NCBI GenBank assembly: GCA_029582155.1
Contig: CM055900.1
Location: forward strand, 46,613,736-46,677,735
Length of the DNA stretch: 64,000 nt
Direction of reading: 5' to 3'
DNA from: Panopea generosa
Taxonomy: Eukaryota; Mollusca; Bivalvia; Adapedonta; Hiatellidae
The notes beneath the pieces are model-generated. The model saw nothing but the letters and a program-made list of their open reading frames with translations, was not told where the DNA came from and searched no databases. The translations under genes and the position numbers were made by a program. Shown here piece after piece: positions 8,546 through 54,500 of the stretch; the first letter of the stretch is position 1, and the number at the start of each line of letters is the position of its first letter.

Positions 8546-11500
8546 CAGCACACATGGTGGTTCTCCAATGTAGTAGAATATCGTGTTTGTACATATGCTG
8601 TAAGTTGGTAACAGGGGATGTACAACACACATGGTGGTTCTGCAATGCCAGAGAACATCGTGTTTGTACATATTGCTGGAAGTTGGTTACAGGGGATGTA
8701 CAACACACATGGTGGTTCTGCAATGTTGGAGAATATCGTGTTTGTACATATCGCTGTTAGTTGGTTACAGGGAATGTACAACACACATGGTGGTTCTGCA
8801 ATGTAGGAGAATATCGTGTTTGTACATATCGCTGTAAGTTGGTTACAGGGGATGTACAACACACATGGTGGTTCTGCAATATTGGAGAATATCGTGCTTG
8901 TACATATCGCTGTAAGTTGGTTACAGGGGATGTACAACACACATGGTGGTTCTGCAATGCCGGAGAACACCGTGTTTGTACATATGCTTTAAGTTGGTTA
9001 CAGAGGATGTACAACACAAATGGTGGTTCTGCAATGCCGGAGAACACCGTGCTTGTACATATGCTGAAAGCTGGTTACAGGGAATGTACAACACACATGG
9101 TGGTTCTGCAATGTTGGAGAACATCGTGTTTGTACATATGCTGTAAGTTGATTACAGGGGATGTACAACATACATGGGTGGTTCTCCAATGCTAGAGAAC
9201 ACCGTGTTTTTACATATTGCTGTAAGTTGGTTACAGAGGATGTACAACACACATGGCGGTTCTGCAATGCTAGAGAACACCGTGTTTGTACATATGCTGT
9301 AAGTTGGTTACAGGGGATGTACAACACACATGGTGGTTCTGCAATGTTGGAGAATATCGTGTTTGTACATATGCTGTAAGTTGGTTACATGGGATGTACA
9401 ACACACATATTGGTTCTCCAATGCCGGAGAAAACCGTGTTTGTACATATCGCTGTAAGTTGGTTACAGGGGATGTACAACACACATGGTGGTTCTCCAAT
9501 GCCGGAGAACACCGTGTTTGTACATATGTTGTAAGTTGGTTACATGGGATGTACAACACACATGGTGGTTCTCCAATGCCGGAGAACACCGTGTTTGTAC
9601 ATATTGCTGTCAGTTGGTTACAGGGGATGTACAACACACATGGTGGTTCTTCAATGCTAGAGAACACCGTGTTTGTACATATGCTGTAAGTTGGTTACAG
9701 GGGATGTACAACACACATGGTGGTTCTGCAATGTTGGAGAATATCGTGTTTGTACACATCGCTGTAAGTTGGTTACAGGGGATGTACAACACACATGGTG
9801 GTTTTGCAATGTTGGAGAATATCGTGTTTGTACATATACTGTAAGTTGGTTACAGGGGATGTAAAACACACATGGTGGTTCTGCAATGCTAGAGAACACC
9901 GTGTTTGTACATGTGCTTTAAGTTGGTAACAGGGGATGTACAACACACATGGTGGTTCTGCAATGCCGGAGAACACCGTGTTTGTACATATGCTGTAAGT
10001 TGGTAACAGGGGATGTACAACACACATGGTGGTTCTGCAATGCCAGAAAACACCGTGTTTGTACATATTGCTGTAAGTTGGTTACAAGGGATGTACAACA
10101 CACATGGTGGTTCTGCAATGCCGGAGAACACCGTGTTTGTACATATCGCTGAAAGTTGGTTACAGGGGATGTACAACACACATGGTGGTTCTGCAATGTT
10201 GGAGAATATCGTGTTTGTACATATCGCTGTTAGTTGGTTACAGGGGATGTACAACACATATGGTGGTTCTGCAATGCTAGAGAACATCGTGTTTGTACAT
10301 ATGCTGTAAGTTGGTTACAGGGGATATACAACACACATGGTGGTTCTGCAATGCTAGAGAACATCGTGTTTGTACATATGCTGTAAGTTGGTTACAAGGG
10401 ATGTACAACACACATGGTGGTTCTGCAATGTTGGAGAACACCGTGTTTGTACATATGCTGTAAGTTGTTTACAGGGGATGTACAACACACATGGTGGTTT
10501 TGTAATGTTGGAGAATATCGTGTTTGTACATATGCTGTAAGTTGGTTACATGATATGTACAACACACATGGTGGTTCTCCAATGCCGGAGAACAACGTGT
10601 TTGTACATATTGCTGTAAGTTGGTTACAGGGGATGTACAACACACATGGTGGTTCTGCAATGCTAGAGAACACCGTGTTTGTACATATGCTGTAAGTTGG
10701 TTGCAGGGGATATACAACACACATGGTGGTTTTGTAATGTTGGAGAATATCGCGTTTGTACATATGCTGTAAGTTGGTTACATGGTATGTACAACACACA
10801 TGGTGGTTCTCCAATGCCGGAGAACAACGTGTTTGTACATATTGCTGTAAGTTGGTTACAGGGGATGTACAACACACATGGTGGTTCTGCAATGCTAGAG
10901 AACATCGTGTTTGTACATATGCTGTAAGTTGGTTACAGGGGATGTACAACACACATGGTGGTTCTGCAATGCTAGAGAACATCGTGTTTATACATATGCT
11001 GTAAGTTGGTTACAGGGGATGTACAACACACATGGTGGTTCTGCAATGTTGGAGAACACCGTGTTTGTACATATGCTGTAAGTTGGTTACAGGGGATGTA
11101 CAACACACATGGTGGTTTTGTAATGTTGGAGAATATCGTGTTTGTACACATCGCTGTAAGTTGGTTACAGGGGATGTACAACACACATGGTGGTTCTGCA
11201 ATGCCGGAGAACAACGTGTTTGTACATATTGCTGTAAATTGGTTACAGGGGATGTACAACATACATGGTGGTTCTGCAATGCCGGCGACACCGTGTTTGT
11301 ACATATGCTGTAAGTTGGTTACATGGGATGTACAACACACATGGTGGTTCTGCAATGCCAGAGAACACCGTGTTTGTACATATTGCTGTAAGTTGGTTAC
11401 AGAGGATGTACAACACACATGGTGGTTCTGCAATGCCAGAGAACACGGTGTTTGTACATATTGCTGTAAGTTGGTTACAGGGGATGTACAACACACATGG

Positions 11501-12474
11501 TGGTTCTCCAATGGCGGAGAACACCGTGTTTGTACATATTGCTGTAAGTTTGTTACAGGGGATATAAAACACACATGGTGGTTCTCCAATGCCGGAGAAC
11601 ACCGTGTTTGTACATATCGCTGTAAGTTGGTAACAGGAGATGTACAACACACATGGTGGTTCTGCAATGTAGTAGAATATCGTGTTTGTACATATGCTGT
11701 AAGTTGGTTACAGGGGATGTACAACACACATGGTGGTTCTCCAATGCCGGAGAACACCGTGTTTGTACATATGCTGTAAGTTGGTTACAGGGGATGTAAA
11801 ACACACATGGTGGTTCTGCAATGTTGGAGAATATCGTGTTTGTACATATCGCTGTAAGTTGGTTACAGGGGATGTACAACACACATGGTGGTTCTGCAAT
11901 GTTGGAGAATATCGTGTTTGTACATATCGCTGTAAGTTGGTTACAGGTGATGTACAACACACATGGTGGTTCTGCAATGTTGGAGAATATCGTGTTTGTA
12001 CATATTGCTGTAAGTTGGTTACAGGGGATGTACAACACACATGGTGGTTCTGCAATGCTAGAGACACCGTGTTTGTACATATGCTGTAAGTTGGTTACAG
12101 GGGATGTAAAACACACATGGTGGTTCTGCAATGTTGGAGAATATCGTGTTTGTACATATCGCTGTAAGTTGGTTACAGGGGATGTACAACACACATGGTG
12201 GTTCTGCAATGTTGGAGAATATCGTGTTTGTACATATGCTGTATGTTGGTTACAGAGGATGTACAACACACATGGTGGTTCTGCAATGCCGGAGAACACC
12301 GTGTTTGTACATATGCTGTATGTTGGTTACAGAGGATGTACAACACACATGGTGGTTCTGCAATGCCGGAGAACACCGTGTTTGTACATATCGCTGTAAG
12401 TTGATTACATGGGATGAACAACACACATGGTGGTTCTCCAATGCCGGAGAACACCGTGTTTGTACATATTGCTG

Positions 12475-14585
12475 TAAGTTGGTTACAGGGGATGTACAAC
12501 ACACATGGTGGTTCTCCAATGCCGTAGAACACCGTGTTTGTACATATGCTGTAAGTTGGTTACAGGGGATGTACAACACACATGGTGGTTCTGCAATGTT
12601 GGAAAATATCGTGTTTGTACATATGCTGTAAGTTGGTTACAGGGGATGTACAACATACATAGTGGTTCTGCAATGTTGGAGAATATCGTGTTTGTACATA
12701 TGCTGTAAGTTGGTTACAGGGGATGTACAACACACATGGGGGTACTGCAATGCCGGAGAACACCGTGTTTGTACATATGTTGTAAGTTGGTTACAAGGGA
12801 TGTACAACACACATGGTGGTTCTGCAATGTTGGAGAATATCGTGTTTGTACATATTGCTGTAAGTTGGTTACAGGGGATGTACAACACACATGGTGGTTC
12901 TGCAATGCTGGAGAACACCGTGTTTGTACATATGCTGTAAGTTGGTTACAGGGGATGTACAACACACATAGTGGTTCTGCAATGTTGGAGAATATCGTGT
13001 TTGTACATATGCTGTAAGTTGGTTACATGGGGTGTACAACACACATGTTGGTTCTCCAATGCCGGAGAACACCGTGTTTGTACATATTGCTCTAAGTTGG
13101 TTACAGGGAATTTACAACACACATGGTGGTTCTGCAATGCTGGAGAACATCGTGTTTGTACATATTGCTGTATGTTGGTTACAGGGGATGTACAACACAA
13201 ATATTGGTTCTCCAATGCCGGAGAACACCGTGTTTGTACAAATTTCTGTAAGTTAGTTACAGGGGATGTACAACACACATGGGTGGTTCTGCAATGCTGG
13301 AGAACATCGTGTTTGTACATATCGTTGTTGGTTACAGGGGATTTACAACACTGTTGTTGGTTCTGCAATGCCGGGGACACCTTGTTTGAATATATCGCTA
13401 TAAGTTGGTTACAGAGGATGTACAACACACATGGTGGTTCTGCAATGTTGGAGAATATCGTGTTTGTACATAACGCTGTAAGTTGATTAAAGGGCATGAA
13501 CAACACACATGGTGGTTCTCCAATGCCGTAGAACACCGTGTTTGTACATATGCTGTAAGTTGGTTACAGGGGATGTACAACACACATGGTGGTTCTGCAA
13601 TGTTGGAGAATATCGTGTTTGTACATATTGCTGTAAGTTGGTTACAGGGGATGTACAACACACATGGTGGTTCTCCAATGCCGGAGAACACCGTGTTTGT
13701 ACATATGCTGTAAGTTGGTTACAGGGGATGTACAACACACATGGTGGTTCTGCAATGTTGGAAAATATCGTGTTTGTACATATGCTGTAAGTTGGTTACA
13801 GGGGATGTACAACATACATAGTGGTTCTGCAATGTTGGAGAATATCGTGTTTGTACATATGCTGTAAGTTGGTTACAGGGGATGTACAACACACATGGTG
13901 GTTCTGCAATGCCGGAGAACACCGTGTTTGTACATATGCGGTAAGTTGGTTACAAGGGATGTACAACACACATGGTGGTTCTGCAATGTTGGAGAATATC
14001 GTGTTTGTACATATTGCTGTAAGTTGGTTACAGGGGATGTACAACACACATGGTGGTTCTGCAATGCTGGAGAACACCGTGTTTGTACATATGCTGTAAG
14101 TTGGTTACAGGGGATGTACAACACACATAGTGGTTCTGCAATGTTGGAGAATATCGTGTTTGTACATATGCTGTAAGTTGGTTACATGGGGTGTACAACA
14201 CACATGTTGGTTCTCCAATGCCGGAGAACACCGTGTTTGTACATATTGCTCTAAGTTGGTTACAGGGAATTTACAACACACATGGTGGTTCTGCAATGCT
14301 GGAGAACATCGTGTTTGTACATATTGCTGTATGTTGGTTACAGGGGATGTACAACACAAATATTGGTTCTCCAATGCTGGAGAACACCGTGTTTGTACAA
14401 ATTTCTGTAAGTTAGTTACAGGGGATGTACAACACACATGGGTGGTTCTGCAATGCTGGAGAACATCGTGTTTGTACATATCGTTGTTGGTTACAGGGGA
14501 TTTACAACACTGTTGTTGGTTCTGCAATGCCGGGGACACCTTGTTTGAATATATCGCTATAAGTTGGTTACAGAGGATGTACAAC
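12475..14585. repeat. Higher-order duplication within the satellite (period 1,159 bp)
   Basis: Blocks at about 12475-13426 and 13634-14585 are nearly identical over about 950 bp at an offset of exactly 1,159 bp, which is 15 monomers. They share rare variants such as ACATACATAGTGG, ACAAATATTGG and the aberrant short units. Identity ends abruptly after 13426 and 14585. This indicates a recent unequal exchange or block amplification. Confidence 0.85.
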
Positions 14586-14975
14586 ACTGTTGTTGGTTCT
14601 GCAATGCCGGAGAACATCATGTTGGTATATATCGCTGTAAGTTGGTTACATAATATAGTTTGCAATGTTGGAGAACACCGCATTTGTAGAAATGGCTGTA
14701 AGTTGGTTACAGGCGATGTGCAACACATATAATAGTCTGCAATGCTGGAGAACACCGCGTTTGTAGAAATGGCTGTAAGTTGGTTACAGGGGATGTGCAA
14801 CACATATAAAAGTCTGGAATGCTGGAAAACACCGCGTTTGTAGAAATGGCTGTAAGTTGGTTACAGGGGATGTGCAACACATATAATAGTTTGCAATGCT
14901 GGAAAACACTGCGTTCGTAGAAATGGCTGTAAGTTCGTTACAGAGGATGTGCAGGAGATCACTGTATTTATATAA

Positions 14976-15574: not shown

Positions 15575-18049
15575 ATGGTATTTGTCAAAGTTGTACAGAT
15601 CACGGGATATTCAATGTAAGTTTGATATTATTTAATAAGTTCAATTTAATATATTTATTTATTTTAATATATATATATTTGTTAATATTAAATTTAATAT
15701 ATATATTTGTTAATATTAAATTTAATATATATTTTTGTTCATATTAAATTTAATATATATTTTTGTTCATATTATACTTTGTTCGGGTTAATACGAAACG
15801 ATAAATCTTTAATCCTGTAATTGGTTGTATTATATTCTGTTACTAATTAAAACATTTAATGCTTTATAACACATTTTTGATTTAATTTAGTTCTCGTCAA
15901 TACGTTTTTTATTCGTTATTTCTGTATATAGAATAAATTAGATTATAAAGGATACGTGCTTTAAATTTTATATATTAGAAAGGGAAAAAAAGAGAGATTT
16001 AATGTAAATTCGCCAACGATAATTACGTAATTTGGATGATACTTGCTTTATTAGTCCAATAGGGTATTTTTTTTAGGTAAAACTGAGTGTTATTGAAGAG
16101 TTATTAAATAAAATTGAGGTCTAAGAATGGGAATCACGTAAATAATAATTAATAATTAATAAATATGTAGATATGTGTATATATATTATTGACTTAAACT
16201 ATAACATCATTAGAAATATGTGACAAAATAATATACATACACGCTAATTAATAGTAAAGTGATTTGCACGATGAGCGTACTCTAAAAGGAAAGAAAAATT
16301 TCTATCTGTTTGTCATGTTATTATTTCGTGGTATATTTCAGTTTTGTTTATGTACACGTGAGAGTTACACTGAATCGGTTGGTTTATATATCAGTAGTAT
16401 TTACCTTTTTTAGTATTAGGCTAACTCATGGAGATAAGTTAAAAGATGTTTTCAGTTTTTAAAAGGTTATTTTAACAATTCATATAAATACGTACATAAT
16501 ATTATATGTTATTTAAATACAAATGTTAGTATAAACTATTATAGTATACAGTACATGACAATGATAAATTATTTAAATGTTATTTATGTTATATGGAAAA
16601 ATACCAACATTTTTTTTAATTCATCTAAAAATATTAACTTTTGTCAAAATCTGTTTGAATCAGTTCACAGTACAATACTCTTAGAATAAAATGGGTTTAA
16701 AAGGTGTCTATGTATGTCTTAAGTTGTCTATTATTATGTTCTGACAATAAAATATGATTAAATGATGATTTAAAATTATTATATTCTGTCAATAAGGTAT
16801 GCTTAAATGATTTGAAATGATTATATTTTGACAATAAAATACATGTATGCTTAAATCTAAAGTTTGATGTTTTGACAATAAAATATGCTTAAATCATCTG
16901 AAAGTATCATGTTCTGACAATAAAATATGCTTAAATCATCTGAAAGTATTTTGATCTGACAATAAATAAATTATACAATAATTATTGACAATAAAATGTG
17001 TTCAAATCACCTTCAGGTTTTTAATTACTGGCATTAAAATGTTTACATTATATGCTTGTATCATGCAATGATTGTTTAATGTGTTTAAAAAAAATTAAAA
17101 GTACCCTTTTAAAACCATTTTAGTGTAAAAGTAAAGTGTATTTAAACATTTAAAGATTATTAATATATGGTACATATAAATCTTACAGTTTTAGAATATT
17201 ATATAATGTATACACTATATAATATATATATATGATACTCCAAACATTTCTATATCATATCTTATTTATTTGATAGATATATAGATGTGAATATGAGAGA
17301 GTTAATAAATTAATACACCCAAACAATACAGAATTCTTTACAATCTTTAAAAAAAAACACGAGCGTTTTAGGAATATATATACCTTCTTCAGGGGATGAA
17401 AATAAAAAAAAGATTAATAATGATAATGTTTAAAATGTCAAATAACGATTACGATGATACAGACATGATAGTTTGATAAATCAATTGAATTGTGAAAGCG
17501 TTCACAAATTATAATGTGAGCCTTCAGGCGCGCATAAACTACACAACAGTAAAGATCAGATAAGTGTCTGTTTTATAAGCATTGTTCTCTCTTTATCTGA
17601 CCATGTTTCTTTTCTTATGTTACAGGGCAAACAGTTCACAGACTATTAGAAAGTCTCTGATCCACACGATAGCCCTCATGGTAACCATAGCGATATTCGT
17701 ACCGGATGTGGAGGGGGCAGGGTGCAGACGACGTCTGTCGCGACAAGTCATTAACTACAAAGACTGTTTGCCCAAACGTCTGCTTGCCTATTCGTGCGTT
17801 GGTACGTGTATCACGCATGCGCAGATATCCCCAATAAATCCATTCGAGATTGAGCACACCTGCTACCAATGCAAAGAAGCCGTCGTGTCAACCAGAAAAG
17901 TCAAACTGCAGTGCCCGGATGAGAAAGGGCCCAAACCCTTTAAAAGAGTAACCATCGAGGTTTCCCAGCCAAGAGAATGTATGTGCGAGCTATGTTCTTA
18001 TGATGAGCTTGTAGTAAAAGTCTCGTCCGAAAAAAGCAATGACAAATAA
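15575..18049 (+). CDS. burs: Bursicon-alpha-like cystine-knot hormone (two-exon model)
   Basis: Model: exon 1 at 15575-15615, donor GTAAGT, a 2,010-bp intron, acceptor TTCTTATGTTACAG, and exon 2 at 17626-18049. Both junctions are phase 2, and joining them creates an ATG codon (AT|G) followed by GCA AAC. Exon 1 alone would add 13 residues starting from a good-context ATG (GAAAATGG), so translation may start in exon 1 or at the junction ATG. A signal peptide follows: basic n-region (IRK), hydrophobic LIHTIALMVTIAIFV, then a VEG-AG cleavage region. The mature part is a cystine-knot domain with CVGTC and a final CMC. In arthropods bursicon alpha pairs with bursicon beta and signals through the LGR receptor rickets; molluscan roles are less clear. 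The intron contains two AT-rich tandem arrays. Exon 1 is inferred; exon 2 is well supported. Confidence 0.7.
15640..15778. repeat. AT-rich tandem repeat in the bursicon intron (~28-30 bp)
   Basis: About four units alternate ATATATATTTGTTAATATTA and AAATTTAAT blocks in the first part of the intron, about 25 bp after the donor. Confidence 0.8.
16735..17010. repeat. ~45-bp tandem repeat in the bursicon intron
   Basis: The motif TGACAATAAAATATGCTTAA recurs about six times with spacer ATCATCTGAAAGTAT between copies. The units are diverged. Confidence 0.8.
17626..18049 (+). CDS. burs: Bursicon-like exon 2 (signal peptide and full cystine knot)
   Basis: Ten cysteines are seen in the domain. Their spacing matches the bursicon-alpha subunit, as I remember the arthropod family: C-13-C-9-C-3-C-17-C-2-C-13-C-21-C-1-C-2-C. 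The 13, 9, 3, 17 and 13 intervals are the same; the interval before the final CxC is 21 here against about 20. Supporting motifs are LPK after the second Cys, CVGTC, LQCP, and ECMCELC at the end. Arthropod bursicon has an extra Cys in the middle (C-x-C-C); here that site reads CYQC, so one of the usual eleven is missing. An unspliced reading from ATG 17603 is also open, but it would translate through the pyrimidine tract and acceptor, so splicing is preferred. The domain sits whole in the last exon and the stop is TAA at 18047-18049. Confidence 0.87.
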
Positions 18050-39505: not shown

Positions 39506-39570
39506 TCAATTTGTTATGGCCTTGGCATTTGCAGGGTAAAAATATTGCTCAATATATTTATATGAATTAA

Positions 39571-41709
39571 CCCTTTACTCCATAGATAAGCGTTTTCCCG
39601 CACCAATCACAGAAGGCCTTTGAAAACAGTGCAGGAAGAGTTCAGATTGTCATAACATGCAATTTGAACACTTCCTGCACTGTTTGCCACTCTGTCAGCT
39701 AATATAAACATAATTCACCCAATAAATCAAAAGCCTTCTATATTAGGTGTCCAAAGGCGTCTATATTAGAGGTGTCCGAAGGCGTCTATATAAGAGGTGC
39801 CTAAAGGTGTCTTTATTAGAGGTGTCCAAAGGCGTCTATATTAGAGGCGTCCAAAGGCTTCTATATTAGAGGCACCCAAAGGTGTCTATATTAGAGGTGC
39901 CCAAAAGCATCTATATTAGAGGTGCCCAAAGGCGTCTATATTTGAGGTGCCCAAAGGTGTCTATATTAGAGGTGTCCAAAGGCGTCTATATAAGAAGCGT
40001 CCAAAGGCGTCTATATAAGAAGCGTCCAAAGGCGTCTATAGTAGAGACACCCAAAGGAGTCTTAAATATTAGAGGCGCCCAAAGGCGTCTATATTAGAGG
40101 CCCCCAAAGGCGTCTATATTAGAGGTGTCCAAAGGCGTCTATATAAGAAGCGTCCAAAGGCGTCTATTAGAGGCCCCCAAAGGCGTCTATATTAGAGGTG
40201 TCCAAAGGCGTCTATATTAGAGACACCCAAAGGCGCCTATATTAGAGGCCCCCAAAGGCGTCTATATTAGAGGTGTCCAAAGGCGTCTATATAAGAAGAG
40301 TCCAAAGGCGTCTATTAGAGGTGTCAAAAGGCGTCTATATAAGAGGTGCCCAAAGGCGTCTATATTAGAGACGTCCAAAGGCGTCTATATTAGAGGCGTC
40401 CAAAGGCGTCTATATTAAAGGTATCCAAATGCTTCTATATTAGAGGTGTTTAAAGGCCTCTATATTCTCAAAGGCATCTATATTAGAGGCCCCCAAAGGT
40501 GTCTAAATTAGAGGCTCCCAAAGGCGTCTATATTTATATTAGAGGTGTCCAAAGGCGTCTATATTAGAGGCCCCCAAAGGCGTATACATAAGAGGCGCCC
40601 AAAGGCGTCTATATAAGAGGTGCCCAAAGGCGTCTATATAAGAGGCGCCCAAAGTCGTCTGAATTAGAGGCGCCCAAAGTCCTCTATATTAGAGGCGCCA
40701 AAAGGCGTCTATATTAGAGGCCCCCAAAAGCGTCTTAGATAAGAGGCGCCCAAAGGCGTCTATATAAGGGCGCCCAAAGGCGTCTATATAAGAGGCGCCC
40801 AAAGACGTCTATGTAAGAGGCCCCCAAAGGCGTCTATGTAAGAGACCCCCAAATGCGTCTATGTAAGAGGCCCCCAAAGGCGTCTATGTAAGAGGCCCCC
40901 AAAGGCATCTACATAAGAGGCGCCCAAAGGTGTCTATATACGAGGCGCCAAAAGGCGTCTATATAAGAGGCGCCCAAAGTCGTCTATATTAGAGGCGCCA
41001 AAAGGAGTCTATATAAGAGGCGTCCAAAGGCGTCTATATAAGAGGTGCCCATTGGCGTCTATATAACAGGCGCCTAAAGTCGTCTTTATTAGAGGCGCAA
41101 TAAGCGTCTAGAGGTCCCCAAAGGCGTCTTAGATAAGAGGCGCCCAAAGGCGTCTATTATAAGGGCGCCAAAAGGCGTCTATGTAAGAGACGCCCAAAGA
41201 CATCTATGTAAGAGGCCCCCAAAGGAGTCTAGGTAAGAGGCCCCGAAATGCGTCTATGTAAGAGGCGCCCAAAGGTGTCTATGTAAGAGGCCCCCAAAGG
41301 CGTCTACATAAGAGGCGCCCAAAGGCGTCTATATAAGTTGCGCCCAAAGGCGTCTATATAAGAGGCTCCCAAAGGCGTCTATATAAGAGGCTTCCAAAGG
41401 CGTCTATATTAGAGGCGCCCAAAGGCGTCTATATCAGAGGCGTCCAAAGTCCCCAAAGGCGTCTATATCAGAGGCGCTCAAAAGCCTTTTTATAAGAGGC
41501 CCCCAAAGGCGTCTATATAAGAGGCGCCCAAACGCTTCTATATTAGAGGCATCAAAAAGCTTCTATATTAGAGGTGTCCAAAGGCGTCTATATAAGAGGC
41601 TTCCAAAGGCGTCTATATTAGAGGCCCCCAAAGGCGTCTATATTAGAGGTGCCTATATTAGAGGTGTCCAAAGGCATCTATATCAGAGGTGTCTATATGA
41701 AGTAAAGGG
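39571..41709. mobile_element. piggyBac-type MITE with an expanded internal 25-bp minisatellite
   Basis: It starts TTAA-CCCTTTACTCCATA and ends TATGAAGTAAAGGG-ATAA, so the inverted ends begin CCCTTTACT and the right TTAA has one change. A subterminal hairpin (39625-39684) pairs AACAGTGCAGGAAG with CTTCCTGCACTGTT. The interior from about 39730 to 41695 is a 25-bp tandem unit, AAAGGCGTCTATATTAGAGG plus CGCCC/TGTCC, about 75-80 copies. TTAA targets and CCC-starting ends are hallmarks of the piggyBac superfamily. The 240-bp copy at 52834-53073 has the same ends and hairpin with only about two units. Confidence 0.9.
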
Positions 41710-41834
41710 ATAATTACTGTGATGTTTCCTGGTCATACACTGTTGATTAATTCTTCAAATGACATTTGAGAATGTAAAAACTTGGAAATTTAAGACATTC
41801 ATGTACAAAGTTACAAACAAACATAATAATATTG

Positions 41835-42055
41835 TCTGACTGTTAATACTGGATTCATGGGTTTGATTCCAAGGCTGACCACAGTCTCTGTGATAATTGG
41901 CTATGAACTTTGATATAAGGCCATGTAACGCCCACTCTAAATGTGTGGTGATGTAGTCAGTGACTCGAAGAGACAAGGTGCACTTAGGTTCTAGTGGATC
42001 TCAGCCACAATGATTGGATGCCCTGATCACCATTAAATGAAATTCTACTAAAATA
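41835..42055 (+). mobile_element. SINE family A, diverged fragment
   Basis: GTCTGACTGTTAATACTGG, GGGTTTGATTCC (B box) and CCACAGTCTCTGTGATAATT match the head and early body of family A. The 3' half differs. Confidence 0.6.
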
Positions 42056-42271
42056 GGCATAACACCCCAGGCAAATAAAAGCCAAACATACATCCTGGTA
42101 CATTCTTTAATGTAAGTATATGTACATAATTGTGGACTACATGTGACATTGTATCATGTTACCAAAAGTGAGTAATGCTGTTAGATTCTCATAGCCAGTC
42201 ATGTAACACACTTGGGTCTAAAGTCGAAAATGTCATATACACGTATATAGTACAAAGTGTATTATTTATAA

Positions 42272-42484
42272 GGCCATCCTTAAAAAAATATTTGTCTGCT
42301 GTGCTCTGATCCAGTATTTTTGGCCAAATTTTGATTTTGCAAACTTTTTTTTTTAAAAGAAAAATAAACAGAAATCGTGAAAAATAAAAATGAAATGCTT
42401 TGAAAGTCAATAAAAAAATTTGGGTAGCTGCAATTTTGAGTGAGTAGGTAGGAGCACGGCAAACAATTTATTTTTAAGGACGGC
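42272..42484. mobile_element. MITE with ~34-bp terminal inverted repeats
   Basis: The left end GGCCATCCTTAAAAAAATA continues with TTTGTCTGCTGTGCTC. The right end, reversed, reads GGCCGTCCTTAAAAATAAAT then TGTTTGCCGTGCTC. There is no coding interior; ORFs here are shadows. Confidence 0.8.
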
Positions 42485-42707
42485 CCAAGATGTTGGTATA
42501 TGATAACATATTGAAGGCTGAGTGAATATATACCGGTTTGTTATCATATTGATGTATCAGAATACAAGTTTATATTTCCTGATGTTTTAACTGTCACACT
42601 TATATATCATTTTCTACTATTGATTATACATTGTGGATTAAAAGTTGTGCATGTAAGTAGATATTTTGGTTATTTTCTGGACCTTTTCCTTCTATAGTAA
42701 AACCGCA

Positions 42708-43020
42708 GCAGTGGCCTAGGAGTAGAGCATTCTCCTCGCATGCAGAAGGTCATGTGTTCAATCCTTGGCCGGGTCATACCAAAGACATTAAAAATGGTAC
42801 TAGAATCTTCCTCTGTTGATGCTCAGCATTTAGAGGATTATGAGTTCTAGGTCTGGTCGATCCACTGTCAGTATAATGTAACTAGGGGTATCATATCATG
42901 TGTCTGCAGGATGGTACTCCAGTGTGACAGCACTCAGAATACTGCCTTAATTAGACACCGTCACGATATATACCAGAAAACTTGTAGAAAGCAACACTAA
43001 ATACCACACAACAATTCTAT
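42708..43020 (+). mobile_element. SINE family C, near full-length
   Basis: The tRNA-like head has A box TGGCCTAGGAGTAGAGC and B box GGTCATGTGTTCAATCC. It is followed by GGGTCATACCAAAGAC, the body shared with 4546-4795, and a tail GAAAGCAACACTAAATACCAC. It is probably the best copy of this family in the window. Confidence 0.85.
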
Positions 43021-43309
43021 ACAGTAAACTTTTTATGTTTCTATTACTGATTTTTCTGGTTTTTGTTTTTAATTAAATGTTGGTGTAAATTTCACAGCTT
43101 TCTATTAATTAATTAGGTGAAATGATACATAAGATAATTAGAAAAATAATTGGAGTTGTAATGAATGAATTGCTTGCTTAATTTCAGCCTGAAATTGAGA
43201 TGTACGGTACATGCGTTGCAAATTTACTATATTTCATGGTTGTCTTCTAGAATTTATATAGAAGTGATCAGGTTTATTTAAGTGCAGACAGCTTATTGGT
43301 TAGGTCGCA

Positions 43310-43450
43310 TGAGTAACCGAATTCTATATAAGGTCGAGTTAAGAAATTGACTCTGGGCGCTGCCATATTGAAACGTCACAATCACGTGTTAAAACACGGC
43401 ATTCGCAACAAGGAGGTCGCCATTGTTTTTCTAAACAGTGCATCATAGGA
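43310..43450 (+). promoter_or_regulatory. Possible promoter/5'-UTR region of the RNase T2 gene
   Basis: This is a locally GC-richer, unique-looking stretch with AACGTCACA (CRE-like), CACGTG, and two CGCCAT/TGCCAT cores (YY1-like) near GGAGGTCGCCATTG. It lies about 2 kb upstream of the first coding exon. That exon starts with a splice acceptor, so a 5' non-coding exon must exist somewhere upstream. No donor or TSS could be fixed; this is a guess. Confidence 0.2.
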
Positions 43451-44316
43451 ATGTACAAACTGCTATTGATATTAAAACCTAGTCTTTCCGATTAAATGCG
43501 TTGTGTGTAATAATTGATTGTGACGTTTTAATGCACTAATTGAGATCAAAATGAATTGCCTTAAATCAAGGAATTTTCTAAAATTCCTTGCTTAAATGTG
43601 GTCTTGAAACTTATCTTTTTTGACAATTTATCACCGTTTCTGACAGATTCCTACTGAGTTAATGTAAATAATTTTCAAATAACGATGTATTTACTCAATT
43701 ATTATAATATGCTGAACCCATAACAATGAAAATAATAAAATTAAACAGCTACAGTTGTTTATTTTATTTGATACAACTGAAATATAAAGATAGTTTACCG
43801 GTGTGACATATTTTCAGCACGTCGTCAGAATCAGATATATCGCCGAATGCACAAGTTTTTGGAAAAACAGTAATTTTTAATTGTTGATTTTAAAAATAAT
43901 ATATCCACAAATTGATTTAGAATATGGATACGAATTATTTTAAAATATATTATTATCACAGTAGCAAATTGTATAGAACATAACAGTAAGTACATTAAAC
44001 AATATATAAGGTAAGTTTTTTTCTAAATATGCAAATGGCAATACATAATGATTGAGATCAGTACATTTAAACAACAAAGTTACTATTAGGCACACCTGCA
44101 GCCGGGAATTCGCTGTGTCAGCCGGAACCTTGTCATGATTTGGTATCATCCGTGTATTTAGTACCTTGTACAAGGAACCAAACTTACATATTTTTTCACT
44201 TTAATTGCCACATCGTTTATAAGACCTAACCATTGGATGCTTTTTAAAAGCAGCCAACTTGTTTTTTTCTAGAACATCAAATTGTACAGGTTACGTTGTA
44301 TATAAAGTTTAATGTA

Positions 44317-44785
44317 ATCAGTGGCCAAGTGGTCTAAGGCGCCATCTCACGATCACTTCTCACTGCTAAGAAATAGTCCAAACTCATCTCAATATTGGAG
44401 GGACTGCCAAAAAACATTGAGATATCCAAATATCAACATAGATTTTGTCTAAAGATTTATATTTATTTTCATCACCTGATATTTTTCGTCTCTCAACACA
44501 GACAATATCAAGTAAAAATGAATATATTTACATACACAGAGAAGGGGAAAAATTGCGGATGACAAAAACAATTGACCCTATCAGAATATTGACTCAAGTG
44601 ATATCAAGATAACGAGTTTCAACTGTAGCAGGTTCGAGTCTTGCTCACTCGCTCCAAAAACTGTATGTAAGAAAGTTTACCATTGACTAGCAGAAGGGTC
44701 ACGAATCACGATGGAACTACTCAGATTTATTCGGAGATCTTCCTCTACCAATAAAACTTTATATAACCAGAAATGTGTTGAAAAT
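44317..44785 (+). mobile_element. SINE family B with interrupted tRNA-like head
   Basis: The A-box half GTGGCCAAGTGGTCTAAGGC (44321) and the B-box half GCAGGTTCGAGTCTTGCTC (44627) are separated by about 290 bp, although an intact head is under 90 bp. The body CTTCCTCTACCAATAAAACT and tail TGTTGAAAATG follow. It has clearly been split by an insertion of unknown type. Confidence 0.65.
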
Positions 44786-44804
44786 GTGCTTGATATAATC
44801 TCAA

Positions 44805-44888
44805 GATTATTTAACTCTTACCACTAAGGTCGTAGATTGAGTCCCGCTTGGTTTAAAAACTTAATATGAGAAAATTTGCCAATGAATC

Positions 44889-44890
<2 letters not shown>
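44805..44890 (+). mobile_element. SINE family B head fragment
   Basis: ACCACTAAGGTCGTAGATTG followed by AGTCCCGCTTGG (degenerate B box) and a short piece of body run into a (CA)n microsatellite. Confidence 0.5.

Positions 44891-44920
<30 letters not shown>
44891..44920. repeat. (AC)15 microsatellite
   Basis: A perfect dinucleotide run. Confidence 0.97.
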
Positions 44921-44923
<3 letters not shown>

Positions 44924-44984
44924 CTCCCCTTCTATACAACCAACTGGATATCCAGTGGATATCCAGAAAGTTTACTAAAAAGTA

Positions 44985-45350
44985 ACAAGCAACAAAATTG
45001 TTAAACTTACAGATACAACCCGGATCCTGTGGTAACACAAAAAGTATCCACTTAGATACATTTGTGAAACTTAGCATGTGAATAGAGGGCAATTAGAAGA
45101 TAATGCAGATTATATATTTTTTTTTTTTCAGTCAGATAAAAATTGTTGTTGCTATGGCAACACAACTGGTAAAATTACAAAAACAACCGGGATCCTGTAA
45201 CACAAATTATCCAACCTACATAAATTTTGTGAAATTTTGGACATGGTTAGAGAGCAATAAGTTCCTCATGTACATCATTTAAAATAAATCAGTTGCACAA
45301 AAACTGTGATTGCTATGACAACACAATTGACCAAATTATAAATACAGTGT
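44985..45350. repeat. ~150-bp diverged tandem repeat upstream of RNase T2 exon
   Basis: CGGGATCCTGT/CGGATCCTGT, GGCAACACAA, ATTTGTGAAA and GAGAGCAATAAG-type phrases recur two to three times. A related piece occurs at 55655-55790, far downstream in the gene. Confidence 0.6.
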
Positions 45351-45451
45351 AAGTACATGTTTGTTAACAAAATCCTACCTAGAAACTGGTAGTGGACTTA
45401 TGTAGCATCCCTTGCAATACTCCAGTGTTTTGCTTTATTCTTGTTTTTCAG

Positions 45452-45523
45452 ACAAATGGCTCACAAAACAGGGACAATGTTACTGTTCTTCTTGGTTGTT
45501 ATAGTGACACCAGGTGCTATTGG
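45452..45523 (+). CDS. RNASET2: RNase T2 exon with start codon and signal peptide
   Basis: The acceptor TTCTTGTTTTTCAG precedes it and TTGG|GTAAGT follows. ATG at 45456 encodes MAHKTG and then a hydrophobic run TMLLFFLVVIVTPGAIG. The four bases before the ATG mean the exon begins in the 5' UTR, so a non-coding first exon lies upstream. It ends in phase 2 (GG|T). Confidence 0.85.
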
Positions 45524-48500
45524 GTAAGTATAAATCATACCAATTTTTCTTCCAAGTCTTTATGTGTATCTTTGACCCACAACTTACTTATGGTAATGTT
45601 TGAAAATAGGTTATGAGGTGTGTGTAAACTATGAGGTCATGTCGAAAGATGATATTTGTCCAAAACTGATGGCTATGAGTTGTCACTACAATAAAAAAAA
45701 AGACATTTTTCATCAACTGTTTTGGGTATAATAGTACAGGTAATATTTTACAGATACCCAGTAATTGAAACAGTTACACGTGTTCTGTATTGTTCCCAAT
45801 TGCAGCTGCCGGATTGGTGTATTTTCCAAAAGTAGGGTACATTGCAGCATTAACAACACTTGTATTGTTCTTCACCTATATGGGAATACATTAAACCAAT
45901 AACAGAAGTAAAGCACAGTGCAGTCCATTTATAAAGCAGTCTGGAAACCAAAGGCCCAGAGAGAACTAAAAATAGAACTGTAAAAGTCTATCCCAGTATG
46001 TGATATCTCTCAAATCGGGTCTGTAAACTTTAGTGTCAAAGCCTGCGCCAGAATTCATAGTAAAGCTTACCAAACTGACATCATTGTACTAACATGATTA
46101 ATCATAAATATCAGTTTATTTGTTTGTAAATAGCAGATGTCAAGGTCACACTTTAATGTAAAAAAATGTCTAGTCTGAAGCGTCAGTCCATTACTCTTGA
46201 TATTCACGGATACATTTAAATCGCAACCTTTTATAAAGTAGATCATTATTTTCACAGACCATTTACGGTTTATTTGTAAATATTTTGGTTAAAATATGAA
46301 TTTTTTCCTTTTAAAAAATTGCTATTTAACTAAAGAAATGTTCTAATTTGTGAAACTCCTAAAACTCAAAACTTAATTAGAATGGACGTCCATCTGCCCG
46401 TCAGCCATCATTCTATTGCAGCATCCTTAGCCATTATAGTCTGGGTAACTGAATTTTTACCTATTTATTTTATCATCATCTTCTGATATTTTGTTTATTT
46501 CTTTGTCATACAGTTCATGGAGAAATGAATGGGATTTCTTCACATTTGCTCAAGCATGGCCTCCTGGAACCTGTGCTTCTGCAAAAATGGAAGTAAGTTG
46601 ATCTTTTTGGCTTTGTACAACAGAGTTTAAGGTATTAAATCTGTAATGGTCAATGTCACAACCTTCTCTAAACTTGTTTTCCTTGATATCATCATCCTTT
46701 GAGGGATGTATTTCTGAAATTTAAGAAGATTTTACCATCTAGAGTGGAAATTATTTAGTTTTTAAGTTGTCGATGCCTATGACCTCGAGACGGCAAATAA
46801 TAAACAACTTCAAAACACAATGAAATAGTTGTAATTTTCATATATATACTATAAATGATATAAATTTGAAAGGCATTTTTACATCACATCAATGTTGCTT
46901 AATAGAACAATACTGAAGAAATTAACATATCTTCTATTCTTTCATCTAAATCTTTAAAATCTTAACCTAACACCACTTTTGAATTGTTACTTTTTTTACC
47001 AAATATTCTACAACTTCGTATATTTTAAAATGTTCTAGCACCATTATTATTATAATTAACCACTAATGTTTTAAGCCAGTATTTTGTACATTGTTAGAAA
47101 AAATGTTGGAAGCGACGCTTAACACCACACAATACAACAGTTCTTAGCATCTAAAACAATCCCATCTTCTGTACTTTGAGTACTTTGATTTTTTGTGTCT
47201 CCCAATACTAGCGCAATAAGGCATAATGGACAGCATGTTGGATAGCCAACCAATCATGAAGTTATCCATCCACACCTGATTTAATCACGCTTATCTGACT
47301 GTTCACTTTAATTTTCAACTATCTCCTCTAACCACAATGTTTTAGTATGAGGGCCCTTCTCAGCTATTAGGAAATTATCTCTCAAATTTTAGATATGGGT
47401 AAAACCACTTAATTTCAGTTCATGACACTTATAGATAGATCATAAATGCTTAAACTGATAATAAAAAGATAGCGTAGGGCTAATTTAACAACTTTTTAGT
47501 GTTTTCAGTAAAGACACCACAAAGTGACGCCCATTATCTTGACAAATCTAATTTTCATTTTGAACAGTTTTTTCCTGCCAAAATCACTATTAAGTAACTG
47601 TTAAGTAATTCATTTATCAGATTTTCATACACTGGAAACAACTACCATTAAGAAAAAGTTTCTTTTTTTTTCTGTAGTACAGTTAAAAATAGTGACGCCT
47701 ATTACTTTTATTCCTGGCTGCATTTCTTTTTTTCCTTTAATCAGATCCTCTTTCCCATAGAAAATCTTGTCATGGACAAGTCAGTCAGATTTCTTCAAAT
47801 GTCTTTCATATGATATTTTAGAGTTAAAGTGACATTTAATAATTATATAGATACTTTTATGTACGGACATTACTGTTGACATTTTGACAACCAAAAAAAA
47901 GTGACGCCTATTACTCCAATATCATTTGTAATAAATAATATTATTTGAATACCCCTGAAGTGGTTTATCAAGTGGTAAAGAAATTAACTTTACCTTTGAC
48001 TCCATATGCATTGAAGTGGGCTGTTCTCAAAATTTACTCATCTAATTAAACACACAATTAAGGCGAACATTTTTTATTGATTTTTATTGAAACATGTACA
48101 TACATCCAATCTGAATGATTTGCACTTGGGTAAAACACAATAAAGGACACAAACGCTATAATCAATTCAAATAATTATTATAAGTTGATAATAATTAAAG
48201 ATATAGCTGCAAAATATAAATGAAACGTTAAGATGGCATTATTTTTTGTTTTTAACATCAGTTTGTCATAAACATTTGAATATTTTAAAAGCAGATCATA
48301 CAAAATTCAGTATCATACTAAGCAAGGAACTGTTACCCAAAACACATTTATAAGTGACAGTGAATGTTCAAATATGCACACAGTTTTAAATCAAGAATTT
48401 AGTTAAGTATACTATATATTAAAGCCTCCTTAAACTTTTGTTATACCGTAATGACTCGTTGCTTTCCGACTGTGCCTCCCCTAGTGTTCGGAAGTACACA

Positions 48501-51500
48501 AATGAATACTGCAGTGGTAGTGTGCAGATTAATAACATTAAGACCAATATATAAGGGGTACATTAACAAGTTTGGAGTTATGGCTTCACTGACATTATGT
48601 ATTTTGGTCTGGTAACTCGTGCTTAGGATCCTCCCTTGTATATACGCATGATACTATCACACGCAACACTACGTCACAAATCACTTTATCATAGTCAATA
48701 TTGTGTTTGTTAAGTTCAGTTATTAAAAACGTAAATTAATCTTTAATTCTATATGGTTGATTCGTTGCTAACATGCAATAAATTAGCTTGTGGGTTCCAG
48801 TTCATTAATACACCAAGGGGAACAAAGGGGATGTTCTTTAAAACTTTCAAACTGCAGACAGTTATTTGAATTTTTAACTGCATCCCCTACAGTTCACCAT
48901 ACTATGTTTCTCTGAAATGAAGTGATGATATATTACCAACCGAGGCGTTCCAAAATTAGTAACTCCTCGTTTTCTGTTCAATGTATTTATCGAAAAGAGA
49001 CGAACATTAATTTGTAAACAAAACCTGTTCATAATTATGTACTAGCTAATAATATGCTTTATATTTATTTTTCCATTTGCAAAGTCTCAGTAATCAAATA
49101 AACATGTATTCTATTATTGTGAAGATTAAAACTGACTTGCATTAAAACTAAAAACAACCGTTTAGGAAGTTTAATGAGTCTTTAAATAATTATGGACACT
49201 ACAAAAAGAAAATGATAATAAGATCTTGAGCCAATCTGTAACAAGGCTGGTTGATCAAGACGGTGCACAATATCAAAATGGGAGACAAAAAGAAGTTTTT
49301 GTTCCAACATCCAGCCTGCCCTCGACTGTAAAACTGGACCAATATCCCATGGGTGCCAGCCAGTTCATCATTAGGTGGTGAGACAACCTGAAAAATATAT
49401 AACAAATTGTTTAGAAATTATGAATTTATAAATTATTTACAAGAAAATTTAACTTTTTTTACAATAGAGTATCAGTACAGAACTTATTAATGTTTTTGCA
49501 AAGAAATTTTGTTTTATTTACCATCATGGTCAGTATCATTTCAATACATTCAGACACTAAACAACCTAGCAACATGGATTTTTTACATGGTTGACTGCAC
49601 GTAGTACTTCTTAAATGAACCAGTAAGTAAGTTCTATTGAAAGACTGCTTTGATGAAATACATTGGTGTATAGATACTGACCTCAGGTCAGCTTGATGAT
49701 CAGGTAACTGTGATAGTACAGTAGTGGGTGGGTCATCAGTCACAGCTGAAGACATGTTCATCGAGATTGAATCTTCATTCGCTGGTCCATTAGACGGGTC
49801 AGTCGAGAGTGGGTCAATCTCTGTGAGACTTGACAGGTTAGTTGAGAGTTTGGTGTGATGAATGGACGTGGAGTTAACAAATTCTGCTTTCCTGTTCTTT
49901 GGCGCCACCAATCTTCTTTCTCAGCCTTTCTTTTTCTTTGAAAACAGGATCATTCTTCCTTTGTTCGGGATACCTGATGACATCAAATGCATGTTTTAAA
50001 TATAAGACATACCTCTATTGTTATATATCAGAAATTATATGTGTAAGTTGTTAATATGTGTATGTGAAAGCTTGATTCTTATAAAACAACTAAAAAGTCT
50101 CCAAGCAAAAGCTATAATTTCATTTTATAAAGAGCTATATGTTTAATAGTATAGATCTTTATCTTGAGAAAAATTCAGACTTTTGTGACCAATGTTGACC
50201 CAGATCAGACTAGGTTTCTGCATAGCCTGATCCTCTATGCTGTTTACAAATACTGATTTAAAACTTTAATTAATAAAATCATTCACTGATGAAATAGCAA
50301 ACAATATTGACTACACTGTACGAAAGTTAAGGTTAATCTGGTTGTACGCAAGTCATAAATGCCTGACCGCGTCCTTTTTTCTTGCAAGACTGCTCATATA
50401 ATTATATAGTAGTCCACTAAATTAATTGATTTAATTATATTACCTTTTTGGTCTTTCAGCAGGAGTTTATGTCAAGTTATTACTATTACTGCTAATAGGT
50501 TTTGGTTTCTTTGCTGTACGTGCACACCGACCATGGATATTCTGCAAAATAAATGTACCATTTAGCTTTTGTTGTACCTTTTACCGAATAACTGGCATTT
50601 AAAATGGTACTTCAAAGTCCAACATAGAAATTACATGCAATTTTCATATGTTTTTCATACTTATTGTGATAGAAGAAAAAACAGTGTAGGGCATGTGATG
50701 ATTTCTTATTACTATTATTAAAACTTGTCCTTCACCTATTTCAAAAGCCTTCTGCACCAGGGGTGGGGGTGGCAGCATTCTCCACAAGTTTGGGGTAGGG
50801 AGTTATGTGTAAGCAGTATAGGGTTTAACATTTTTGACAAAACTCTTTTGTTTATATTCAAATTATTCTGTAACAGTATTGGATGTGTTGGACATAATGA
50901 ACTATTTTTAAACCATGTCAAACATAATTTCCATCACGAAAACAGTACAAACATTGTTATTATTTATGCTAAGCCAATTTTAAATTGTAAAACTCTATTA
51001 ACAATTAATATTTCAAGAAAAAACAATAACTTGAAAGATGACACTGATGCTTGCTTTAAAATTCAAATCACAAATTACATTTCTGTATTTGGAAATTACT
51101 TTTGACAAGACAGTCTGATCAAAATAACTGCCAAACTACTATTTTATAGTTAAGTTTCGACAGTTGGAAGTTAGTCTCTTGCTCCAAAAATTATGAATAA
51201 AGTTTATATTTTCTTAATGTTTTTAAAGGCTACATAAAATTTTAACTGAAAAATACAAATAAAACGCCTCATGCATGTGATGGAAATTATGATCGACATA
51301 TATTTGATGACGGACATTATTCTTGACAAAATACTAACAGATTTAGTCTATCATGCATACACCGTCAAAGCATAATTTCCGAATAAAAAATCAAAATATT
51401 TTCTCTTAGATGTTCTGCACACACTTTAAATGTAAGAGGCCAACAGCTACAGCCAAGTCACCATCATTAAAAGTCTTATTCAATCGAGTCAGCATCAAAA

Positions 51501-54500
51501 ATGAAATAAATATGAATAAAGCATGAACGGCAATTACTTCTCAGATAAATGTCTGTCAATAAAAATGTCCGTACAAACAAGTTCTGTCAAACTGTAATTG
51601 CCGATCTCGACTTTTCTAAAATACTCCTGAAAGTAAGGAGAATACTCTCGTGTGTCCGTGTGTCATCTCTCTAAACCATTTACACTGCTTTCGTTACTTC
51701 GAATTATACACAAGTATTGTGTTGGAATGATAAAACAATGATTCAATTTTTCTGTGACGCCCATTACTTGGCTGAGCGGTTGACAGACAACAAACTTACC
51801 TCCATATTTTTGTTTTATGCAAAATCTGCACTGGTATCGATGACGTAGTACACATAAAACGGTCTCAGGCAAATTTTAACTCCCGATAAAAAAGTCCCCT
51901 ATATCGTTCTAGTGGATTCGTGACTCGGCATACGCCAATTACGGAATTGACGGACATTTCGATTCACGAATAAAATTTGAATTTTACAGCTTTGTCATTG
52001 TTATATACAAAGTGTGTTATTTTAAAACCTACTATGGAAATATGTTTTCCAAACATGTGGATGTTCTTTGATCATCACAACATGATTAATATATTTTTTT
52101 TAATGCCGACAACTCTTCTTGTTTTGACGGATGCCGTAATAGGCGTATGCATCAATTTCTAACAAGTTTTTTTTATCACTTGTAACATATTCATTTAATA
52201 GTTATAATGAATAGTTACAAGTATTATTTCATTTAAATGTTAGCAAATGACTAACTGTTGTCATATAGATTAAACGGGGAAAATTTGGCCATGATTGAAG
52301 TCCCCTCAATTCCCAGTCAAAATGGATGACGGATATTCCTTGACATTTCAAGTTTCAAATACAAATTTGATCCATTTTCTGAGAATTGAGTCAAGATATT
52401 GTTTTTTCTATCTGAGGAATTAACAAACAACAAATTTAAAACATAGTTTTTTATTTATCTTATTTCTTATAGAAAATACAATTTAAAAAGTGACGGCCAT
52501 TACTATTTCCAAATAGCTGAGAAGGGCCCATGACATAATATAAATACATGTATTAATTTGAACAAATTTTAAGTTACAGATCAATAGGGGAAACTAATAT
52601 TCTCCTACATTTTGACACCACATTAGTGATATTTCAACTAACAATACGAGTTTGTGTTTCTGTATGCTTGATTTGCAATATTGTGTTATGATTAATATAA
52701 TTATATTATTACAGGCACAACAAACATGCCGGTGTAATTAACCTTGTCGCACTGAAACTGTGTGATCTGTAACTGAAATTTGAGTAATAGAATGGCTGAT
52801 GAAAATGAAAGTTTTTTCTAGCTAGTAGTTTAACCCTTTACTCCATAGATACGCTTTTCCCCGCACCAATCACAGAAGGCCTTTGAAAACAGTGCAGGAA
52901 GAGTTCAAATTGCTTGTAATGAGCAATCTGAACACTTCCTGCACTGTTTTCCACTCTGTGGGTTAATATAAAAAAATAATTCACCGGATAATTCAAAAAT
53001 CCTTCTATATGATGGTGTTTAAAGGCATCTATAATATTAGAGGTGTCCAAAGGCGTCGATATGAAGTAAAGGGTTAATTCTTTTAGCCCATATTATTACA
53101 TAAGAAATACCACTATGTTGATATCTTATGCCAATATTTGCCAGTTAGCTAAATATTGAATTTGGTATATCTGAGTTCATTAAGTTTATAAATGCTAATT
53201 TATTTAAGCTTGATTGAGAAACAGCTCGGGGCTGATAGTAATGAACCTCTCAAGCCTGCTTCCTGGGTAGAACCAGGACTGAGTGGTGCTTTTTTGAAAG
53301 GCATCTGGTTGAGTTGGGGATCGAACCCACACCCTCGGTCGTGAGCTGCCAACACTTAATCCTTTACAAACATTTTTCACTGAGTTCTCTGAGTTCATTT
53401 GTGCCCGATTAGCTCAGTTGGTTACACGTCTGATTATTAATCTTGGGGTCGTGAGTTTTATTCCCTGCCCGACAACAGTCTCCATGATATACGACATCGT
53501 GTCTCAATATCATTCATCTCTCACTGCTGATTCAAGTGGGAAAGTTATCAATTACTTGCGGAGATCGGGTGTGATCGAGTACAGGTTAAAGATTCAGTAT
53601 CCCGGGTAACAGTGGTTAGGTTTACTGATCGTCTGTTAGTCCTCGATGACAAAAAATTACACTAAATATTCAATCAATCAATTGTGTGATGAGTATAATT
53701 TAATTATTATCGTTACACAGATGTACTTAATTTTTCACATCAGGTGGCTTCTATTATTTCAATTATCACCTTTGTTTACTAATTACTAATATGGTAATTA
53801 CTATTTTACTATATATGTAATTAATCAGTTAATACTATTATTATTAATTTAAATTACGGTATGCGGTCACTTACAGTTCAGGAAATCTTACATGTAAGTG
53901 CACCTTTGGTAGTCAAGCCCGGTTAGCTCAGTCGGTAGCATGACTGGCTGTCAATCCAGGGCTCATCAGTTTGAATCGCCGCATTGCCACAGTCTCTATG
54001 GTGATTGGTTAGTTCTACAGTCATTATTATCCCACCTCTGTATTATGTGGGGAAGAAGTCATTGATTTGCAGAGAAAAGGTGTGGCTACTACTGGTAAAT
54101 TGCCTAGCGAAACCTAGGAATGATTATTAGGTGCGATGAATTCTGTAAGGTCCTAAATTTGCAAAGCTGCATTTTTTTTACTTTAGTTCTCATCCCATGT
54201 ATACCAAACTTAATTAGAATGTTAACAAGTATAAAAACTTGGCTGTGTTTTTAATCCAGCCTTTAACTGAACTAGAAATGACATAGTTATGTACTCAGAT
54301 GAAATGAAATATGCTGTTTGACCTTGTTTACACTATAGCATGATCACTTTTCATTGGATTGTGACCAGGCCAGTATTATTAACCATCGATGAAACCTTGA
54401 ATATATTCTTTGAACTGAAGTAAGTTCTATTGAATTACTAATTAAAAAATTTGCCTAGCATCAGCTCAATGCAGTTTTGATTAGACAAAATTTAATCAAG

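Follow-up and report, generated by a model that had tools for sequence, protein, structure and literature searches.

The locus

The window analysed here is a stretch of 64,000 nucleotides from the bivalve Panopea generosa (assembly GCA_029582155.1, contig CM055900.1, positions 46,613,736 to 46,677,735 of the forward strand). It holds two copies of one miniature inverted-repeat transposable element (MITE), a non-autonomous member of the piggyBac superfamily. An earlier note, made from the letters of this DNA, had described the copies as carrying about 2 and about 78 units of a 25-bp repeat, and we measured 2.4 and 78.7. We consider it highly probable that this piggyBac-type MITE took its unit from the subterminal repeats of its parent, and that the unit expanded independently after insertion. 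The features of the two copies are these:

39567..39570, + strand: target-site TTAA to the left of the long copy, read from the sequence
39571..41709, + strand: long, expanded copy of the piggyBac-type MITE, CCCTTTACTCCATAG ... GAAGTAAAGGG, with a 20-bp terminal inverted repeat (90%)
39624..39685, + strand: subterminal hairpin of the long copy, AAACAGTGCAGGAAG and its complement (fold z -7.9)
39727..41693, + strand: 25-bp minisatellite array of the long copy, 78.7 units, beginning with a unit in the seed's form and with private variants inside
41710..41713, + strand: right flank of the long copy, ATAA, a single base away from TTAA, read from the sequence
52830..52833, + strand: TTAA left flank of the short copy, read from the sequence
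52834..53073, + strand: short copy of the same MITE, with genome-wide matches to other copies
52887..52949, + strand: subterminal hairpin of the short copy (fold z -8.9)
53004..53062, + strand: 25-bp repeat of the short copy, 2.4 units, the unexpanded state, with a small insertion
53074..53077, + strand: TTAA right flank of the short copy, read from the sequence

The subterminal hairpin was correctly noted in both copies: neither fold was equalled in 200 shuffles, and within the window the AAACAGTGCAGGAAG motif, allowing up to one mismatch, is confined to the two elements. Other parts of the earlier description need amending. TTAA flanks had been given to both copies; the short copy does bear the target site on both sides, but the long copy has TTAA and ATAA and so lacks a perfect pair. 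The copies had also been said to differ almost only in unit number. The arrays differ as described, but the bodies outside them agree at 140 of 155 aligned bases and have unequal lengths (156 and 170). These differences are ordinary family variation: the bodies depart from the family consensus by 4.8% in the long copy and 6.0% in the short one. Finally, the 25-bp period stands, but the letters of the unit do not carry over from the window to the family. The commonest letters of the long array give AAAGGCGTCTATATTAGAGGCGCCC, whereas the family unit is AAAGGCGTCTATATTAGAGGTGTCC, to which this diverged array is 85% identical.

An abundant family of short elements

The MITE is about 240 bp long, and its right arm has two or three head-to-tail 25-bp units that lead directly into the right terminal repeat. 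The consensus reads TTAACCCTTTACT[C/T]CATA at each end. These termini form a short inverted repeat and fit the CC[C/T]T start that is a hallmark of piggyBac elements (PMC2872659). In the short MITE the unit is AAAGGCGTCTATATTAGAGGTGTCC or, in the consensus, one base off (CATC for CGTC); the exact form is present in L016.

Counts were made over the whole assembly (1.47 Gb, 39 contigs). Exact TTAACCCTTTACT ends occur 12,128 + 12,158 = 24,286 times and the reversed pattern 51 + 52 = 103 times, so the MITE ends are not a product of chance. Three further markers, each with a control count of zero, trace the interior: the 25-mer that precedes the array (2,060 + 2,111 occurrences), a near-consensus junction between units (3,332 + 3,185) and an exact two-unit 50-mer (584 + 462), which among the matches listed marks arrays scattered along C1 and C2. 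One subfamily holds about one unit and differs in its middle; its structure was seen in two copies (L002 and L007), and its exact marker recurs 593 + 612 = 1,205 times (control 0).

A query with the window's short copy returned 80 match rows, of which 39 are other copies aligned over all or nearly all of its length at 88–91% identity and 40 cover hairpin arms. Since these copies were picked by their likeness to the query, their low divergence is biased and supports no argument. In L005 (1501-1751) we found a 251-bp element with TTAACCCTTTACT ends and an unrelated body; the terminal motif is thus common to more than one MITE family.

The short form is the common class where it was counted, in the first 10.2 Mb of C1. 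There, 27 of 31 inward-facing end pairs enclose 195–263 bp. The other four measure 634 bp (18.3 units), 1,909 bp and, twice, 3,760 bp. We rejected the 1,909-bp pair as a long array because it consists of two adjacent MITEs, and both 3,760-bp pairs because they contain a nested insertion, which was read in one; the other, judging by the spacing, is taken to be its duplicate. The one read, L069 (G000:C1:9736618-9740377), is a MITE copy that recurs about 78 kb away at G000:C1:9815154-9818913; the neighbouring MITE ends keep their order at both places, which points to a segmental duplication. Pre-array anchors were counted in the same 10.2 Mb. Among the matches listed, 14 of 25 anchors have an exact right end, at 39–50 bp (about two units) in 12 cases and at 123 bp (5.5 units) and 441 bp (18.2 units) in the others; for the remaining 11, no right end is among those matches.

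One hundred listed near-consensus junctions from the first 39.5 Mb of C1 fall into 50 clusters, of which, among the matches listed, 11 span at least 100 bp, seven at least 200 and three at least 400. These spans are lower bounds on array length, as diverged units are missed. On C2, exact two-unit matches extend over about 3 kb (G000:C2:55165147-55168123) and point to what is probably another very long array of the 25-bp unit.

Expanded arrays and their ends

We read 18 loci with 19 expanded arrays: the window's, two from the C1 pairs (L070 and L071) and those of 15 loci from an array search (L072-L085 and L088). In that search 40 of 5,290 candidates were scored, yielding 69 match rows, of which some overlap at a single locus. 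L075 has two arrays, counted as one in the 18-locus comparison of bodies and in the 16-array consensus set, and as two in the tests of unit clustering and age. The arrays range from about 12 to about 276 units. The earlier note had proposed collecting copies and comparing their unit numbers, and among the copies read, a subset of those in the genome, the range within this one family is from 2.4 units in short copies to about 276.

Both MITE ends are recognisable, some with base changes, in 16 of the 19 arrays, and one end is recognisable in the other three. The left end is absent from L073 and L077; in L085, with 275 units, the right end is gone and the array passes into a GT-rich repeat. Expanded copies lacking MITE ends had been named in advance as evidence against a transposon origin. 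None of the 19 arrays read is wholly free of MITE sequence, although three have lost one end. One array has turned back on itself: at L074 (2350-2770), one hairpin arm is replaced by about eight inverted 25-bp units bearing that array's private variants, a fold-back rearrangement most simply explained by a template switch at the hairpin.

A probable source of the unit in a coding piggyBac

Where did the unit come from? A search of the genome with DDE_Tnp_1_7 gave 121 matches, the best 30 of which define the transposase loci L039-L068. Their ends belong to several TTAA families, and the nearest to the MITE is that of L044 and L063, whose 3' end, TTAACTCTTTACTTCATAGA, has 59 + 70 exact copies. 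In L044 the frame stays open for 502 aa (DDE_Tnp_1_7 E 1.4e-89); the locus has no match to L063 before base 711. L063 together with the adjoining L089 retains both ends, with a frame broken by one stop. Its 5' end, TTAACCCTATACTTCATAAAGACGC, matches the right end of the MITE at 23 of 25 bases, and comparison of its 3' end with either MITE end gives 18 of 20. The earlier note had called for a search for the autonomous partner; this is the closest coding family found, and on the likeness of its ends it is a candidate for mobilising the MITE.

Directly inside the 5' end of L063+L089 lie four copies of the unit core, spaced 34, 36 and 36 bp apart, where a copy is a match within 4 mismatches of the 18-base core. 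With respect to the terminus they have the position and orientation that the unit has in the MITE, and the last of them abuts or enters the terminal repeat, as it does there. At this threshold no core occurs elsewhere in L063+L089, and 2,000 dinucleotide shuffles of the 5' end never produced more than one. The 2.7-kb relative L090, and L091 and L092, have four cores each, so that all four copies read share the arrangement. With a 273-bp query, 40 of 40 scored places (out of 258 candidates, the query included) align over 271–273 bp at 94–100% identity. The sequences retrieved for the 30 transposase loci (123,081 bases, with L063 lacking L089 and some loci possibly missing their own 5' ends) contain no core. 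When the MITE consensus was compared by blastn with these loci and L063+L089, a 25-bp match was found only at the L063+L089 5' end; the others were 14–21 bp.

By sequence comparison, then, the 25-bp unit is shown to be homologous to four spaced subterminal repeats of a transposase-coding piggyBac in the same genome. The repeat did not originate within the MITE, which most probably inherited it from the subterminal repeats of the parent family. This bears on a quite improbable alternative, that the MITE captured a pre-existing satellite unrelated to the transposon's own ends. Capture has precedents in miDNA4 (PMC12628747) and in the rDNA spacer repeats of Pokey (PMC3849761), but we rejected it here because the core stands four times at the coding piggyBac 5' end, in the same position and orientation, with the last copy joined to the terminal repeat.

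Other coding families were tried as parent. We rejected a 563-aa piggyBac family with ends TTAACCCCTTCACTGCC, in which 10 and 12 of the first 20 bases match the MITE. Two more families, L042 and L047, were weighed: at the ends compared they match at 15–18 of the first 20, but their blastn matches are only 14–21 bp and their sequences as retrieved have no unit core. A further observation concerns piggyBac copies of about 3.07 kb that form a family with 554–563-aa frames (L045, L049-L052, L054, L055, L058-L061 and L064). Its copies are mostly 99.5–99.9% identical in the best pairs listed, L054 being at about 98.5%, and it has therefore probably been active recently.

Independent growth at each locus

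The arrays share one family unit. The consensus unit is exactly AAAGGCGTCTATATTAGAGGTGTCC in 12 of the 16 arrays of the consensus set, departs from it at one site in L074, L079 and L082, and at two sites in the window's array. Exact AAAGGCGTCTATATTAGAGGTGTCC units are present in all 16, where they make up 5–54% of the units. Six arrays contain a unit shaped like the first one of the MITE, 2-base gap included, and in the window's copy it stands at the start of the array.

From this common unit the arrays diverge separately. We defined a derived unit as one with at least 2 differences from the family unit (614 of 1,230 full units in the 19 arrays). The nearest neighbour of a derived unit lies in the same array at a frequency of 0.629, whereas shuffling the labels 200 times gave 0.095, with a maximum of 0.122. 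Likewise, 67 of 85 derived types seen at least twice are restricted to a single array, where shuffling gives a mean of 4.1 and a maximum of 11; of types with at least three copies in one array, 32 of 38 are private. Among the 19 arrays, there is no sign that an already expanded copy has transposed.

These data decide between independent growth and a very improbable alternative, in which one early expansion took place before or during transposition, the expanded copies spread, and the short ones are later deletions. The MITE is plainly mobile and abundant, and arrays in general shrink as well as grow. However, the derived types are mostly private, exact copies of the same family unit persist in 16 of 16 arrays, and wherever copies were counted the short ones prevail. 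A single ancient expansion spread by transposition is therefore rejected on the private variants, and largely refuted for the arrays read. The same variants bear on the idea that the lengths of the arrays were produced by the assembly. Misassembly of long tandem arrays is frequent, but many private point variants, the seed's first unit still in place in several arrays, and flanks that differ between loci make this extremely improbable.

Age of the arrays

Is an array as old as the insertion that holds it? Fifteen of the 19 arrays have at least 120 aligned body bases and could be compared; four were dropped. The median divergence is 5.3% for units (4.2% without the GGCG CpG) and 3.9% for bodies. 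Unit and body divergence are thus similar, and the arrays are about as old as their insertions. From this similarity, and from the clustering of derived units within loci, the expansion is local, repeated and mostly later than insertion. The earlier note had asked what the relationships among units would say on this question, and they point to separate growth at each site.

Several observations weigh against the account given so far. On timing, units are more diverged than bodies in 10 of the 15 arrays (Wilcoxon p 0.047), an excess that falls to 8 of 15 (p 0.76) when the GGCG CpG is dropped. The window's own array is an outlier, at 13.7% against 5.1% for its body; it may predate its insertion in part, or may mutate faster. 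Its divergence may reflect early variants that spread within the array. Unit number has no clear relation to body divergence (rho 0.40, p 0.10 for 18 loci; rho 0.19, p 0.50 for the 15 arrays). On independence, 18 of the 85 recurrent derived types are common to several arrays; some of these have the form of the seed's first unit, and others could reflect recurrent mutation or exchange. On parentage, the coding piggyBac ends, TTAACTCTTTACT and TTAACCCTATACT, are near but not identical to the MITE's TTAACCCTTTACT, and the first 20 bases are not decisive, since at one end those of the L042 family match at 18 of 20. A different element, or one since lost, may be the true partner.

A proposed route from transposon end to satellite

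The MITE would have arisen by internal deletion from a close relative of an L044/L063-type piggyBac, with descent running from piggyBac to MITE. The transposase of the parent may have bound its subterminal repeats, by analogy with piggyBac and piggyBat ends, in which repeated subterminal motifs are bound by transposase and can restrict activity (PMC11707139). In the MITE the spacing would have been cut from about 35 to 25 bp, so that the units would adjoin one another and become liable to slippage and unequal exchange. Growth of the arrays would then be driven by replication or recombination and be mostly functionless, and loss of an end would turn a mobile element into a dispersed satellite array. 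The earlier note had cast the transposon as both seed and vehicle of the satellite. As vehicle the description holds, for the form with two or three units, but the MITE did not create the seed.

Could the units instead have been kept and expanded by selection as transposase-binding sites, giving better mobilisation or a titrating decoy? The unit is the parent family's subterminal repeat, piggyBac-type ends carry repeated bound motifs that may restrict activity (PMC11707139), and higher mobilisation from such repeats has been proposed for Tetris (PMC4079207). On the other side, the subfamily with about one unit (L002, L007 and the 1,205 marker sites) has spread without an array, and the long arrays look like local end-products. 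We judge selection unlikely, and growth after insertion by slippage or exchange would account for the arrays. It is also rather unlikely that the 25-bp unit is still a transposase-binding site, with expanded MITEs as arrays of tens to hundreds of such sites that would titrate transposase or trap it in unproductive complexes.

Comparison with known systems

Satellites growing inside transposons are already known, from Xstir, miDNA4, pearl and Tetris. The DTC84 MITEs of bivalves, too, reportedly have internal satellite-like repeats.

The Xstir repeat and Xmix MITE of Xenopus (Hikosaka and Kawahara 2004, as cited in PMC12628747, PMC2872659 and PMC9659126) resemble our case in that tandem repeats from inside a MITE occur as MITE, array and composite. 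Xstir is cited as a piggyBac-MITE in PMC2872659, and a table in PMC9659126 places its source in the terminal inverted repeat (TIR). It differs in sequence and host, and the passages on it that we drew on do not trace it to the subterminal repeats of a coding element. The miDNA4 element of Xenopus (Scalvenzi and Pollet) holds from one to many satellite monomers in a MITE (PMC9659126, PMC12628747), and its arrays, as described there, may outlive their ends; of the 19 arrays read here, three have lost one end and none is MITE-free. It is a Tc1/mariner element for which capture of an existing repeat is proposed, whereas here we have piggyBac and the parent's subterminal repeat.

Tetris and its TIR-220 repeats in Drosophila virilis also convert tandem repeats of a terminal region into satellite-like arrays, and extra transposase-binding sites are proposed as the first step (PMC4079207). 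In Tetris as here, the unit is homologous to the transposon's terminal region (in 4 of 4 piggyBac copies read). By contrast, Tetris is a foldback element with 220-bp units; in that report no coding element was found and units do not cluster consistently by contig, whereas here a coding relative was found and units cluster by locus.

Two systems were compared by description. The pearl-family MITEs of bivalves contain internal satellite-like repeats, but the arrays reported are of at most six monomers (PMC5139131). BrickBuilt of Porphyromonas gingivalis has a 23-nt minisatellite in a MITE with leader and tail (PMC4596501), but it is bacterial, with 19 copies in the genome of one strain. Corals and Daphnia have piggyBac-type MITEs for which a coding relative is described (PMC2872659, PMC4912750, PMC3849761). 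Among them, coral CMITE family I is a TTAA piggyBac-type MITE alongside AmiPB1, a piggyBac with identical TIRs CCCTTTCCCGTCC; there, however, whole MITEs rather than an internal unit form the tandem arrays (PMC2872659).

Our element is not named in the titles and abstract openings of the part of the literature that our searches covered. What is new, and the strongest feature of the case, is the traced link from a subterminal repeat to a minisatellite.

Other repeats in the window

Elsewhere in the window, positions 16687-17122 hold an array of 42-bp period (16732-16966) between the arms of an 18-bp inverted repeat (16687-16704 and 17105-17122, 94%), which may be another case of an array within a transposon. 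Positions 5451-14950 are occupied by 9.5 kb of tandem units of about 77 bp, which also show a periodicity of 232 bp; the 400-bp flanks of this array hold no inverted repeat at the threshold used.

Implications

This one genome displays the successive stages: a parent with spaced repeats, a MITE with one to three units, independent growth, and arrays that have lost one end. The seed of a dispersed satellite is traced to the subterminal repeats of its parent, not to an accidental duplication, and with thousands of copies the family is a good system in which to measure how fast a minisatellite grows after its birth. If the unit does bind transposase, the family would curb its own mobility by growing satellites, and binding or nicking within the array might itself drive expansion.

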